Positions 3,935 through 35,629 of a stretch of 37,910 nucleotides of DNA are shown here, one piece after another. The notes under the pieces were generated by a model, which saw only the letters and a program-made list of their open reading frames with translations, had not been told where the DNA came from and made no database searches. The DNA comes from Singulisphaera sp. GP187 (GTDB taxonomy: Bacteria > Planctomycetota > Planctomycetia > Gemmatales > Gemmataceae). Location of the stretch: assembly GCA_945861245.1 (NCBI GenBank), contig CAMAUE010000040.1, positions 1 through 37,910 of the forward strand, in the 5' to 3' direction. Position 1 is the first letter of the stretch, and each line of letters starts with the position of its first letter. A program made the position numbers and the translations under genes.

Positions 3935-3964
3935 GCATCGGCTCGGATTATGCAGTCAAAAATC

Positions 3965-4098
3965 AACCACAGAGGCACAGAGAACACAGAGAAATTCAAT
4001 ATAAGCAAAATAGACTATTCGTCATTTTTTGGATTGATAATGCTTCAGTGATTTTTCTACGCATTGCATTTCTCTGTGTCCTCTGTGCCTCTGTGGTT
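3965..4098. repeat. Long inverted repeat, family D
   Basis: The arms 3965-3995 and 4068-4098 are 31 nt each and match at 30 of 31 positions when one is reverse-complemented. The arm begins AACCACAGAGGCACAGAG and has a short CACAGAG period. The 72-nt spacer is AT-rich. It fills the gap between the SDR gene end and the phosphotransferase start. A single degraded arm of the same family lies at 17359-17397. Confidence 0.9.
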
Positions 4099-4109
4099 AA
4101 CTTCTGAAA

Positions 4110-7089: not shown

Positions 7090-7125
7090 GGATGGAAGAC
7101 TCGTGGGGGATATTGCAATGTTCCG

Positions 7126-7189
7126 GTATTCCGCTTGCGGCTTAGCGCTCGCGTGAGATATTCCGAGCGCTAAGCCGCAAGCGGAATAC
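7126..7189. repeat. Nested inverted repeat A1
   Basis: Two 26-nt arms (7126-7151 and 7164-7189) are exact reverse complements around a 12-nt loop. The core of the arm is CCGCTTGCGGCTTAGCGCTC, itself containing the small palindrome CCGC-TT-GCGG. It lies between the 820-residue protein and the ABC ATPase, and creates a false upstream extension of the latter. Confidence 0.95.
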
Positions 7190-9666: not shown

Positions 9667-9701
9667 GAGCCATCGTCCTGTCGTTAGAGGGGGCCTGTTT
9701 T

Positions 9702-9753
9702 CCGCTTGCGGCTTAGCGCTCGCACGGGATCATCTGAGCGCTAAGCCGCAAGC
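9702..9753. repeat. Nested inverted repeat A2
   Basis: A family A element: TCCGCTTGCGGCTTAGCGCT on the left and its reverse complement on the right, ending CCGCAAGC. It lies between mazG-like and the 820-residue protein gene, 13 nt beyond the mazG-like stop codon. Confidence 0.92.
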
Positions 9754-9766
9754 AGCAAAGTAAATC

Positions 9767-10078: not shown

Positions 10079-10150
10079 GTTTAGCCGCTCGTCTCTGGCG
10101 AGCGCGACCTGCGTGTTCTATTCGCGCTCGCCAAAGGCGAGCGGCTAAAC
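10079..10150. repeat. Nested inverted repeat B1
   Basis: The ends GTTTAGCCGCT and AGCGGCTAAAC are perfect reverse complements. Each arm contains its own small hairpin, the right one being GCTCGCC-AAA-GGCGAGC. The element fills 72 of the 79 nt between the TPR gene stop and the mazG-like ATG. Confidence 0.95.
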
Positions 10151-10157
10151 GAATAAT

Positions 10158-13053: not shown

Positions 13054-13947
13054 ATGATTCCAATCGATTTACGTGGCAAGGTAGCGTTGGTGACCGGCGT
13101 GGGCGACGACCGCGGGTTCGCCTGGCATATCAGCAAGGCGCTCGCTGCAGCCGGGGCACGACTCGTATTCGCCAGCCATCCCCGTCTCGTCAATATCGTC
13201 GCCAATATCCTCGAGCGCGATCTCGACCGCGAGTCACGCCTCCTGCCGTTCGGCGCGGGCGAACTCAAGGTCGAAAAGGTGCTGCCCTGCGATGTCGCCT
13301 TCGACAGCATGGCTGACGTTGACGAAAAGACGCTCAACGACAAACGCTACACCAAGCATGGCGACTATACGATCCAGGGCCTGGCGAACACCATGACGAA
13401 GGAGTTCGGCGCCGTCGATATCCTGATTCACGCCGTCGCCTTCAGCCCCGAAATCAAGAACAAGATGGTAGACACCTCGCGCAAAGCCTACCTCACGGCA
13501 CTGAGCATCAGCGCCTTCTCCTTGACTGCATTGCTCAAGGCGTTGCAACCGCTCATGGAAAACCGCCCCGAAGGCGCCTCGGCTGTCGCGCTCAGCTATC
13601 TGGGCGGCGATCGCGTCGTGCCCCATTATGGTGGCGGTATGTCCACGGCCAAGGCGGCCTTGCAGATCGACGCCAAGCAACTCGCCAGCAACCTCGGCCC
13701 GAAGAATATCCGCGTCAATATCATCTCCGCCGGCCCCTATGCGTCACGAGCGGCCTCGGCGATCGGCGACATCGACGAAATGGTCAACCACGCCGCCGCC
13801 TGTTCCCCCCTGCCCCGCGCGATCACGGCGCAAGAAGTGGGCAACACCACGGCGTTCTTGTGCAGCCCGCTCGCGTCGGCGATCACGGGCCACGTGCTCT
13901 ACGTCGATTGTGGGTACAACGTCATGGGCGTCTTCCCGAAGGTTTAA
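13054..13947 (+). CDS. fabI: Enoyl-ACP reductase, plant/chlamydial type
   Basis: 297 residues. It reduces enoyl-ACP with NAD(P)H in the last step of each fatty-acid elongation cycle. Cofactor loop TGVGDDRGFAWHISKAL is at 14-30. The catalytic pair is Y192 and K200 in HYGGGMSTAK, with a second Tyr at Y182. Eight residues from Tyr to Lys, and an extended segment at 84-112 (containing KRYTKHGDYTIQ), match chloroplast and chlamydial ENR rather than E. coli FabI, where the spacing is seven. C-terminal SPLASAITGHVLYVD is characteristic. I chose the start at MIPIDLRGK because the upstream 23 codons lack family similarity. It is followed after 3 nt by repeat C1, which could act as a terminator. Confidence 0.93.
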   Translation: MIPIDLRGKVALVTGVGDDRGFAWHISKALAAAGARLVFASHPRLVNIVANILERDLDRESRLLPFGAGELKVEKVLPCDVAFDSMADVDEKTLNDKRYTKHGDYTIQGLANTMTKEFGAVDILIHAVAFSPEIKNKMVDTSRKAYLTALSISAFSLTALLKALQPLMENRPEGASAVALSYLGGDRVVPHYGGGMSTAKAALQIDAKQLASNLGPKNIRVNIISAGPYASRAASAIGDIDEMVNHAAACSPLPRAITAQEVGNTTAFLCSPLASAITGHVLYVDCGYNVMGVFPKV

Positions 13948-13950
13948 GGC

Positions 13951-14031
13951 AAGCCCAACGGTGAGGTACTCCGAACCGTTGGGATCGCATTTATCATCCC
14001 AGAGGTTCGGCGTACCTCACCTCTGGGCTTT
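13951..14031. repeat. Nested inverted repeat C1 (double hairpin)
   Basis: Two facing hairpins. The left has stem CCCAACGGT/ACCGTTGGG around GAGGTACTCCGA; the right has stem CCCAGAGGT/ACCTCTGGG around the complementary loop. It starts 3 nt after the fabI stop codon and ends in a short T run, so a role in termination is possible. Confidence 0.95.
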
Positions 14032-17263: not shown

Positions 17264-17325
17264 TATGCCGCTTGCGGCTTAGCGCTCGAAAGCGCCACAC
17301 GAGCGCTAAGCCGCAAGCGGCTATA
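17264..17325. repeat. Nested inverted repeat A3
   Basis: A complete family A element, left arm TATGCCGCTTGCGGCTTAGC, right arm its reverse complement. It lies in the divergent region between the phosphatase and M3 peptidase genes. Confidence 0.93.
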
Positions 17326-19234: not shown

Positions 19235-19317
19235 CAAGCCCAGAGGTGAGGTACTCCAAACCTCTGGGATATTACCGGCTCATCCCAAGGGTTCGGAGTA
19301 CCTCACCCTTGGGCTTG
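19235..19317. repeat. Nested inverted repeat C2 (double hairpin)
   Basis: The left hairpin has stem CCCAGAGGT/ACCTCTGGG and the right hairpin CCCAAGGGT/ACCCTTGGG, with complementary conserved loops (GAGGTACTCCAA and its partner). Starts 4 nt after the peptidase stop codon. Confidence 0.95.
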
Positions 19318-20787: not shown

Positions 20788-20832
20788 GCCGGCCGGTTGG
20801 CCCGCGTGGTCCTTGCCTTTTGCAACCGTGTT

Positions 20833-20892
20833 TTCCGCTTGCGGTTTATCGCTAAAATCATCCCACGCGAGCGCTACGCCGCAAGCGCAGGA
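20833..20892. repeat. Degenerate nested inverted repeat A4
   Basis: The left arm TTCCGCTTGCGGTTTATCGC and the right arm GCGAGCGCTACGCCGCAAGC each carry substitutions relative to the other A copies, so pairing between them is partly lost. It lies between the DUF2330 and DUF374 genes. Confidence 0.85.
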
Positions 20893-21578: not shown

Positions 21579-21594
21579 AATGATCGTACGACTT

Positions 21595-21653
21595 TTCCGC
21601 TTGCGGCTTAGCGCTCGGAGTATCCCACGCGAACGCTAGGCCGCAAGCGGAAT
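21595..21653. repeat. Nested inverted repeat A5
   Basis: A family A element: TTCCGCTTGCGGCTTAGCGC on the left, GCGAACGCTAGGCCGCAAGC on the right, with two differences in the right arm. It lies between the DUF374 and DUF1501 genes. Confidence 0.92.
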
Positions 21654-21670
21654 ACAGTGGAAAAACCTTG

Positions 21671-23131: not shown

Positions 23132-23143
23132 TCGGATAATTTC

Positions 23144-23232
23144 GTTTAGCCGCTTGCCTTCGGCGAGCGCGGACAGGAAAAATCGCCGAACATTGGATTG
23201 CGCCCGCGCTCGCCGAAGGCGAGCGGCTAAAC
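23144..23232. repeat. Nested inverted repeat B2
   Basis: A family B element. Ends GTTTAGCCGC and GCGGCTAAAC; each arm has a hairpin (GCTTGCC-TTC-GGCGAGC with one wobble pair, and GCTCGCC-GAA-GGCGAGC). Sits between the DUF1501 and PPC-TlpA-like genes. Confidence 0.93.
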
Positions 23233-23339
23233 GGTGCCGTTTGATTCGTTGCCACGTAAACCCACCTCCCCTCATTCGTCCGCTCTCATACAACGACATT
23301 GGCCCCGTTCATACGCACGAAATCAGAGGAGACCTCACC

Positions 23340-24287: not shown

Positions 24288-24299
24288 AATAGAAACCCC

Positions 24300-24374
24300 G
24301 TTTAGCCGCTCGCCTATGGTGAGCGTGACCGGCGTGTCGTGTGGTTCTCGCTCGCCAAAGGCGAGCGGCTAAAC
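24300..24374. repeat. Nested inverted repeat B3
   Basis: A family B element (GTTTAGCCGCTCGCC left, GGCGAGCGGCTAAAC right). It ends exactly at the stop codon of the convergent gene at 24375 and fills 75 of the 87 nt between the two convergent genes. Confidence 0.95.
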
Positions 24375-25568
24375 TTACCGCTTCACCAGCCGCGGCAACG
24401 CATCGGTCGCGAAGCCCCATTCGCTGGGCTGGTAGCGAATATCGAGGTGCGGCGTCTCCACACGGCGGTTCTTTTCCGTCTTGCTAATCATCACGGCGTC
24501 GAGGATGCCCGTCGTTAGCAACGTGCGTTCGACAGGGTAGACCGCGTGGCCGGTCTGGATCATCGCGTCAATGGCACGCAGCAAGCCCGCGAAATGCCCG
24601 AATGGGTCCGGCTGCTGTAAATAGAACTGGCACGACGCTATGCGATCCTCGCCGCGCACTCGGCCTGCGAACGTGAACGCCCCGCCGTCGCCTTCGTAGA
24701 CCCAGCCGTTGAGCATCGCGACGGCTGCCTTGAAACCATCGCGATATTCGATGATGATGACGCCGGCCTCGTTATTCTTCACCGTCAACTTTCGATAATC
24801 GCCCTTGGCGTAGGCCGGCACGTGGGCCATCGCGGCTTCAAGCAGGTCGCGCGAGAAGACGCCGCGATCCATCGCTGCCCACATCGCCTCGCCTTGCAAA
24901 CAGGTGACGGCCCGGACGCCGGTCTCGCCGCCGCGACGGCGCTCGGCCATGCATTGCAGGCTCTCGAGAGCGTGAAAGCCATAACCTTCAAACGGGCCAT
25001 AGCCGACCTGCACCGCTTCGACAAGTTCGCAGCCACGGCTGAGCCGAAGCGACGGCCGACGCCACGTCACAGGCAGCGACGAGCCCGACATGAATGGAAA
25101 CATCAACTCACGCGATCGATCAACCATCCACCGCGCGTTCGCCCAGTTGTACGAAAGATGCTTGTCGTTGAACACCGGCACGCTGCGGCGATGCTTCGCG
25201 AAAACGTCGGTCACGCTTTCGAAAAAACGCCGGCGCGGATACAGAATCTGCCCACGCTCGTTGCGATCATAGCGGCCATGCTCGCCGATGAGCAGCACGC
25301 CATCGACAGCGACTTCCTTGCGGCCCAGCGTCACCGCGTCGGCAATGTTGTCGTAGATCGTGAAATTGTGCTGTTTCGCGAGCGCCCGGCTCATGTCGTT
25401 CTTGGGAAACTGATCGACAAACATCGACACGAGCCGAAGGTTCGGGAACGCCGCGCGGTCGTGGCCGAAGCCTTCGAGAATCTTGCCAATGATGAGATCC
25501 GCATGCGACCACCGACGATATTCGGTGATGACGGCGGCAACACGTTTGGGTTCGGTGCGTGCTTGCAT
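24375..25568 (-). CDS. Conserved protein of unknown function (possible Rossmann fold)
   Basis: 397 residues from the chosen Met. I do not recognise the family securely. The N-terminus RVAAVITEYRRWSHADLIIG, then LRLVSMFVDQ and DGVLLIGEHG suggest an NAD-binding or nucleotide-binding fold of the Gfo/Idh/MocA kind, with a long C-terminal region. Known dehydrogenase catalytic residues are not evident. No signal peptide or transmembrane segment is seen. The open frame extends upstream to 25619 but that extension is translated from repeat A6; the start at 25568 has GGGG about 8 nt upstream. Repeat B3 abuts the stop codon. Confidence 0.6.
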   Translation of the reverse strand: MQARTEPKRVAAVITEYRRWSHADLIIGKILEGFGHDRAAFPNLRLVSMFVDQFPKNDMSRALAKQHNFTIYDNIADAVTLGRKEVAVDGVLLIGEHGRYDRNERGQILYPRRRFFESVTDVFAKHRRSVPVFNDKHLSYNWANARWMVDRSRELMFPFMSGSSLPVTWRRPSLRLSRGCELVEAVQVGYGPFEGYGFHALESLQCMAERRRGGETGVRAVTCLQGEAMWAAMDRGVFSRDLLEAAMAHVPAYAKGDYRKLTVKNNEAGVIIIEYRDGFKAAVAMLNGWVYEGDGGAFTFAGRVRGEDRIASCQFYLQQPDPFGHFAGLLRAIDAMIQTGHAVYPVERTLLTTGILDAVMISKTEKNRRVETPHLDIRYQPSEWGFATDALPRLVKR

Positions 25569-25580
25569 GGCAATCCCCAC

Positions 25581-25645
25581 GATTGCCGCTTGCGGCTTAG
25601 CGCTCGATAGGCACCACATGAGCGCTAAGCCGCAAGCGGCAAATC
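25581..25645. repeat. Nested inverted repeat A6
   Basis: A complete family A element: GATTGCCGCTTGCGGCTTAG on the left (25581 on) and its reverse complement ending GCGGCAAATC on the right (to 25645). It lies between the anti-sigma-like gene and the unknown gene downstream of it. Confidence 0.95.
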
Positions 25646-25689
25646 GAAATCGGAAAGTTGTTTATTCGATTTTCCTAAATAGCTCTCCG

Positions 25690-33927: not shown

Positions 33928-34031
33928 GTTTAGCCACTCGCCTATGGCGAGCGCAGACGGAATGCCGTGCAACAAAACGGACGCGATCGCACGGGATCAT
34001 GTTCGCGCTCGCCCAAGGCGAGCGGCTAAAC
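33928..34031. repeat. Nested inverted repeat B4 in a divergent promoter region
   Basis: The longest family B copy (104 bp) with ends GTTTAGCC and GGCTAAAC. The left arm contains CTCGCC-TAT-GGCGAG and the right arm GCTCGCC-CAA-GGCGAGC. It lies between the start codons of divergent aspS and asnS. Confidence 0.94.
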
Positions 34032-34091
34032 GGAGTAGCGTTTAATATAAAATCGTCATCATTCGTATCGCAGTTACGTTAGGAGAATCCC

Positions 34092-35483: not shown

Positions 35484-35486
35484 ATC

Positions 35487-35569
35487 CAAGCCCAAGGGTG
35501 AGGTACTCCGAACCCTTGGGATGATTCGATATAAGCCCAGAGGTTCGGCGTACCTCACCTCTGGGCTTG
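35487..35569. repeat. Nested inverted repeat C3 (double hairpin)
   Basis: The left hairpin has stem CCCAAGGGT/ACCCTTGGG around GAGGTACTCCGA and the right hairpin has stem CCCAGAGGT/ACCTCTGGG. It starts 3 nt after the asnS stop codon. Confidence 0.95.
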
Positions 35570-35596
35570 AAAAGTTCTACAATCGCGTACGATACC

Positions 35597-35620
35597 TCGA
35601 GCGCTAAGCCGCAAGCGGGA
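35597..35620. repeat. Half copy of repeat A (A7)
   Basis: Only the right arm of a family A element is present, reading TCGAGCGCTAAGCCGCAAGC and GGGA; the left arm is missing, and repeat C3 ends 27 nt upstream. It supplies the GGGA that may serve as ribosome binding site of the following gene. Confidence 0.85.
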
Positions 35621-35629
35621 ATCACATAG

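Follow-up and report, generated by a model that had tools for sequence, protein, structure and literature searches.

Paired hairpins in a Singulisphaera contig as candidate REPINs with a non-canonical foot from a planctomycete REPtron family

A 37,910-nt stretch of DNA from Singulisphaera sp. GP187 (the window; contig 40, CAMAUE010000040.1, of the 6.04-Mb draft genome G000, 289 contigs, 94.66% complete) carries three copies of a palindromic element, family C, each formed by two hairpins. In a preliminary description, changed bases in the stems were reported to be matched on the other side of the same hairpin around a constant loop, which raises the question of whether the local hairpin is selected for, in DNA or RNA, or is copied. 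The analysis presented here places the elements among the REP/REPIN repeats, in a REPtron family of planctomycetes whose foot departs from the canonical one. Very probably, all three are REPINs, spread by a Y1 (HUH) transposase whose family is found mostly in planctomycetes, with the foot and the loop as the parts that are read.

Each element consists of two hairpins in inverted orientation. Read inward, a hairpin starts with an NAAG foot, followed by one 9-nt arm, the 12-nt loop, the other 9-nt arm and GGGAT or GGGCT; a spacer and then the reverse copy complete the element. The foot precedes CC and its commonest form is CAAG, found in five of the six window hairpins (AAAG in the sixth). By direct reading, element 1 occupies positions 13950..14031 and has the stems CCCAACGGT and CCCAGAGGT; its plus-strand hairpin (13954..13983) carries the loop GAGGTACTCCGA at 13963-13974, and its minus-strand hairpin (13998..14027) the loop GAGGTACGCCGA in hairpin sense. 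Element 2 (19235..19317), read in the same way, combines the stems CCCAGAGGT and CCCAAGGGT, with the loops GAGGTACTCCAA on the plus strand (19239..19268) and GAGGTACTCCGA, in hairpin sense, on the minus strand (19284..19313). Element 3 (35487..35569), likewise read directly, has the stems CCCAAGGGT and CCCAGAGGT, with GAGGTACTCCGA in the plus-strand hairpin (35491..35520) and GAGGTACGCCGA, in hairpin sense, in the minus-strand hairpin (35536..35565). The three copies and six hairpins are all present where they had been reported, the stems match exactly the three forms then listed, and the loop is indeed nearly constant, being GAGGTACTCCGA in three of six hairpins, GAGGTACGCCGA in two and GAGGTACTCCAA in one. 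The elements also begin, as described, just past plus-strand stop codons: the upstream open reading frames (ORFs), for which we retain the earlier labels fabI, pepF-like and asnS, end at 13947, 19230 and 35483, which leaves 2, 4 and 3 nt between stop codon and foot.

Family C is a repeat family far above chance. A 17-nt loop pattern with at most two mismatches has 137 + 139 = 276 matches genome-wide, compared with 1 + 0 for the reversed pattern. In a survey of 59 genomes it was detected in all seven genomes of the genus (6 to 450 matches each) and, with 8 matches, in G020 of the same family; the remaining 51 genomes have 0 to 2, as does the reversed control. Among 26 elements in 427 kb of G000, 18 lie in tandem, 4 in convergent and 1 in divergent gaps, and 3 were scored within ORFs; 17 are +- pairs. 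Nine were placed by script within 10 nt of a stop codon, and copy 1 of the window, scored as inside an ORF by an artefact of the crude gene caller, makes the tenth. The family has in these counts the high copy number and the mostly extragenic inverted pairs of REPtron repeats.

The covariation of the stems is real but narrow. For G000, 149 hairpins (105 distinct) were collected from 75 loci around exact loop matches, which bias the set towards good loops, from 20 tiles and from the window, with a score that ignores pairs 5 and 6 and does not require pairing. Watson-Crick pairs were found at pair 5 in 70 and at pair 6 in 73 of the 105, compared with a mean of 45 and a maximum of 61 in 5000 shuffles, while the other seven stem pairs show no excess. 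A second set, of 106 elements from eight genomes, yielded 205 hairpins after nested ones had been dropped, and 82 distinct stems, eleven stem sequences being perfect. Here pairs 4, 5 and 6 are Watson-Crick in 64, 52 and 61 of 82 stems (shuffled means 44.1, 34.2 and 38.3), above every one of 2000 shuffles (maxima 53, 49 and 51). The covariation test in related genomes that had been proposed thus bears out the matched changes at pairs 4-6, and G000 bears them out at pairs 5-6 of nine; the excess does not extend to its other seven pairs.

The pairing in question is better described as local than as long-range in G000 (312 vs 221 of 384 cells), but the two are close in the other genomes (276 vs 260 of 312 cells), where homodimers are common (22/39). 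A long-range cruciform as the kept structure was rejected on the G000 counts, with the same reservation for the other genomes. The most stable predicted fold of each whole element is one long hairpin, of about -30 kcal/mol as DNA and -55 to -57 as RNA (-11.4 for a single local hairpin alone), and because these predicted energies favour it, the long hairpin may be an intermediate. Heterodimers are not in excess in G000 (37/48, random expectation 38.4), the AG+GA combination alone being so.

Resident copies show a different pattern at the constant pairs. From the 149 hairpins, 21 split by a nested element and 15 with another arm length were removed by rules written by hand, which left 113 clean copies. 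In these, 65 of 1582 constant-stem cells deviate (4.1%), compared with 61 of 1356 loop cells (4.5%), and of the 64 deviating pairs at the seven constant positions none is Watson-Crick, 19 are G-T and 45 are unpaired (2, 30 and 120 of 152 prior to the exclusions). Fully Watson-Crick stems remain in 50 of the 113 copies. Since the constant pairs deviate as loops do, with no compensation in 64 cases, the copies appear to decay, and the matched changes belong to the successfully spreading types. Such a pattern is expected if hairpins are copied and then decay freely; selection acting on every resident hairpin would predict otherwise. Unpaired stem differences at the loop rate, named in the preliminary description as contrary to its proposal of selection for the hairpin or copying of it, are in part what we see; the copying half of that proposal is the better supported, and standing selection on each copy is not supported. 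Mispairs among the 105 distinct hairpins, not oriented by transcription, are G-T in 49 and A-C in 49 cases, with no sign of RNA-type wobble tolerance. Together with the uncompensated pairs, this equality does not support a standing RNA role, and propagation by way of a hairpin in DNA, recognised by a transposase, is the better fit.

The elements were also compared at orthologous sites in sister genomes. Family C is also present at the place of element 1 (fabI side) in G005, where pair 6 of hairpin 1 is G-C, compared with C-G in G000. It is the one full pair change among five G000-G005 element pairs aligned in place; in hairpin 2 of the fabI-side pair, and in that of L300/L023, one-arm changes break the pairing in G005. 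At the place of element 2, G005 and the five other genus genomes compared show no visible family C loop; at that of element 3, the family C element of G004 differs in its stem. After the asnS-named gene (window 35484-35580), G001 and G003 carry other palindromes and G002 another inverted repeat. Similarly, at all four G006 sites compared with G000 by eye, different palindrome families occupy the same place. Functional replacement of one palindrome by another was considered and set aside as weakly evidenced, because 75 of 131 tandem gaps in G000 already hold a perfect stem of at least 9 bp of any family. The corresponding counts are 29 of 48 for convergent and 13 of 48 for divergent gaps (shuffled control: 1, 1 and 2), and family C is one among several palindrome families in these gaps.

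A candidate enzyme is encoded between copies of the element itself. A weak Y1_Tnp match in G006, with a product of 176 aa, sits between family C pairs, and a gene of 176-180 aa has family C on both sides in G006 and in G005 (L177). Relatives of the G006 protein were found in six of the seven genus genomes, G004 (74% complete) being without one; those at L178, L180, L181, L182, L183 and L184 lie beside other palindromes. In nine aligned members T97-H98-x-H100 and Y157 are kept, and H98, H100 and Y157, the catalytic HUH motif and tyrosine, are invariant (9/9). The predicted model (mean pLDDT, predicted local distance difference test, 80; low at residues 20-40) matches in Foldseek the transposases of ISDra2 and IS608 as well as the REP-transposase complex 4er8. 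With one protein as phmmer query no match to PDB sequences was obtained, and a profile gave 2ec2 at E 0.32 only; the sequence profiles are weak, and the structural link comes from the fold search. On this modelling the product is predicted to be a distant Y1/HUH protein. The G006 ORF (L167:1282-1812) stops inside its own downstream hairpin, whose loop GGTGAGG provides an in-frame TGA; by reading, a neighbouring upstream gene in the L192 region of G005 may likewise end in a family C loop.

A scan of public genomes recovered 82 relatives of the protein, of which 80 were kept, nearly all from Planctomycetota by record title (one Vicinamibacteraceae and a few entries named 'bacterium'). The flanks of 59 of the 80 were taken for analysis, one being too short. 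A shared flanking repeat of at least 14 nt was found at 47 of the 58 remaining loci, compared with 1 of 174 swapped controls. Among 6-mers seen at least 40 times near these genes, AAGCCC with its complement is the most enriched (110 vs 28.5 expected); AAGCCC occurs at 40 and CAAGCC at 32 of the 58 loci, and by eye, uncounted, GAG...CGA in the loop is common to several of the repeat families. Relatives lie between pheS and pheT at L181, L195, L197 and L199, and at L193 beside pheT near the contig start, with at least three hairpin types among the genes at this site; judged from the sequences, the place appears stable and the repeats changing. In the tree L181 pairs with L198 (92/97), which has the same loop type.

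Several observations weigh against assigning the window elements to this enzyme family. No transposase gene flanked by family C was found in the window's own assembly, with its 289 contigs and 94.66% completeness, nor in G001, G002, G003 or G004 (the last, 74% complete, giving no hit). L181, the nearest gene in the window's genome, has hairpins of a sibling family (foot CAAG, loop TGAGCGCAGCGA) on its flanks, and at 11 of the 58 relatives the two flanks share no 14-nt repeat. A single member was scanned in detail and scored under the curated Pfam and NCBIfam cut-offs, and domains of adeno-associated virus Rep appear at similar Foldseek E-values (5.9e-4), so that the match is to HUH proteins at large. 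The foot is NAAGCC and not the GT[AG]G of known REPtrons. In the covariation analysis, slid controls reach 53 of 105 at pair 5 (observed 70) and 65-66 at pair 6 (observed 73); the evidence for pair 6 therefore rests more on the shuffles. Moreover, the eight-genome search pattern includes the loop and pairs 7-9, whose constancy there is built in. Finally, the site of the gene and its hairpins in G005 is empty of both in G000, the flanks aligning at 89% and 96%.

At the G006 site both neighbouring genes, with no gene between them, are found in G000, G001, G003 and G005, and the downstream flank alone in G002 and G004. The alignments are most simply read as gains at two separate sites; precise loss of the gene units may have occurred instead. 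In G003 the G006 site holds a worn family C pair, and recombination between existing pairs is accordingly possible there. Two further observations concern the transposase-like loci of G000. L181 is absent from the PF01797 matches and was recovered by protein query alone; the flanks of the PF01797 loci L011-L015 contain no family C hairpin (a weak loop-like match near L013 was discounted). The sibling loop pattern TGAGCGCAGCGA has 114 matches in G000, compared with 2 in the control. On the minus strand of L119 (~15275, 0-based on that strand) a family C stem encloses this sibling loop, possibly as a hybrid of two REP families.

The elements could alternatively act in RNA, as 3'-end hairpins kept as mRNA-stabilising or transcription-ending structures. 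Their mostly downstream position (18 tandem and 4 convergent of 26 in 427 kb), the gap counts for stems of any family and the different palindromes found after the asnS-like gene in different species would suit such a role, but avoidance of promoters accounts equally well for the few copies in divergent gaps. The 64 uncompensated pairs and the 49:49 ratio of G-T to A-C speak against it. By reading only, the hairpins are followed by GGGCTTTTCTTGC in copy 1, GGGCTTGCC in copy 2 and GGGCTTGAAAA in copy 3, with no T-run past the hairpin in copies 2 and 3, and Rfam at gathering scores gave no match in the whole window. We regard selection in RNA as quite unlikely.

Mutation without selection was also considered: template switching between palindrome arms would copy a change mechanically from one arm to the other. 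It is reported to give rise to hairpins, to preserve them and to make the arms of inverted repeats alike (PMC8794818, PMC8604942), and at L300 of G005 the outer arms of hairpins 1 and 2 are equal while the local pair of hairpin 2 is lost, which resembles copying between arms at long range. However, the process should hit every position of the stem, and among the 113 copies not one compensated change was seen at the seven constant pairs; in addition, an inverted-loop pattern has 33 matches, and the 25 listed among them all end on the right like GGGCTT, as normal or double-foot units. This explanation is unlikely, though not negligible. A third candidate, by far the least probable, would make family C a miniature inverted-repeat transposable element belonging to an insertion sequence of the DDE type, whose terminal inverted repeats would be the hairpins. 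The inverted paired ends and a nested element of ~200 bp with inverted ends of its own between family C hairpins are compatible with it, but no target duplication is evident by eye in the orthologous comparisons, and such ends were seen to enclose a gene of Y1/HUH-like character.

Spread as REPINs by a Y1 transposase has close parallels. The REP/REPIN and TnpA-REP (RAYT) REPtrons of E. coli and Pseudomonas are likewise inverted, mostly intergenic palindrome pairs in hundreds of copies that flank a Y1/HUH transposase gene, as here in G006 and G005, and both heterodimers and complementary stem changes are known in REP systems from the sections available (PMC3733652, PMC3116915). Family C is set apart by its 12-nt loop with GAG...CGA, the RAYT model matches the protein distantly (best 2.1e-9), and given its foot we do not file the family under the GTAG superfamily. 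Nor does it have the features of CGTC-tagged REPs, which carry CGTC at one end, a 4-5 nt loop and a CCA tail (PMC3733652, in part): its foot is CAAG and its loop 12 nt. Class 3 TnpA-Y1, as far as the accessible text of PMC6006769 goes, has a 155-aa profile with extended N-terminal conservation, occurs mainly in Planctomycetes and Acidobacteria and is flanked by atypical high-copy hairpins, and thus resembles our family in host phylum and flanking hairpins. Compared by description alone, it differs in NHVH, Y----Q and foot CnGA, where we find THxH, Y---Q in 7/9 members (Y----Q in L181) and NAAGCC. IS200/IS605 elements (IS608, ISDra2) differ in that here there are many non-autonomous copies per genome and the G005/G006 gene has hairpins in both orientations on each side. 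Reading of the loop is argued for in the discussion of PMC8266576, and compensatory REPIN changes appear in PMC3116915. In the open-access literature on planctomycete REPtrons, so far as its text was available, we found no description of an NAAGCC foot.

In the proposed mechanism, each hairpin would fold locally on an exposed strand, and the enzyme would read the constant parts, namely the foot NAAGCC at the 5' base, the loop GAG...CGA and the loop-proximal pairs. The middle of the stem would be required merely as paired, so that its bases would be free to change if both arms change. Each successful type would be copied as a whole pair, and the copies would settle mostly between genes, some just past a stop codon, and then decay freely. 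Binding, cleavage, strand specificity and mobilisation in trans are what we infer for the enzyme.

Further repeats accompany family C. Two more palindrome families crowd the window gaps, the CCGCTTGCGGCTTAGCGCTCG type at 7123-7186, 9694-9761, 17264-17320, 20827-20887, 21589-21657, 25578-25649 and 35583-35621, and the GTTTAGCCGCTCGCC type at 10079-10153, 23141-23233, 24295-24375 and 33928-34036. A palindrome arm of the CCGCTTGCGGCTTAGCGCTCG type also lies near L013, a Y1_Tnp match with an inner stop. The element nested between family C half-hairpins is 198-229 nt long with inverted ends GGCACCAACTTAAGGAA; it is complete in L017, L051, L090, L114 and L149, with more single ends elsewhere, and the loops beside it face either way. 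Its interior in L017, L051 and L090 contains CACAGAG-type repeats, as at window 3956-4107. A GTTGTGGA-like motif accompanies 14 of 110 feet (L021, L036, L066, L067, L070, L085 and L088 among the loci), lying at most 34 nt beyond the stem, compared with 1 of 110 in a more distant control stretch.

The matched stem changes of family C carry a caution: in a repeat family they need not mean function of the resident copies. Tentatively, and at somewhat less than even confidence, we suggest that a separate planctomycete line of domesticated-looking Y1 transposases may read an NAAGCC foot and a GAG...CGA loop, that tnpA can be mobile together with its hairpin pairs, and that the stem and loop code drifts separately in each lineage. 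Enzyme and hairpin would then have left a natural record of their co-evolution, the five genomes with a relative at pheS and pheT being an example. The choice of REP by its enzyme has been tested in few systems, three of them in PMC8266576. With its different foot, common loop core and fast-changing stems, a family spanning the phylum would offer many natural enzyme-hairpin pairs in which to distinguish what is read from what is merely paired.
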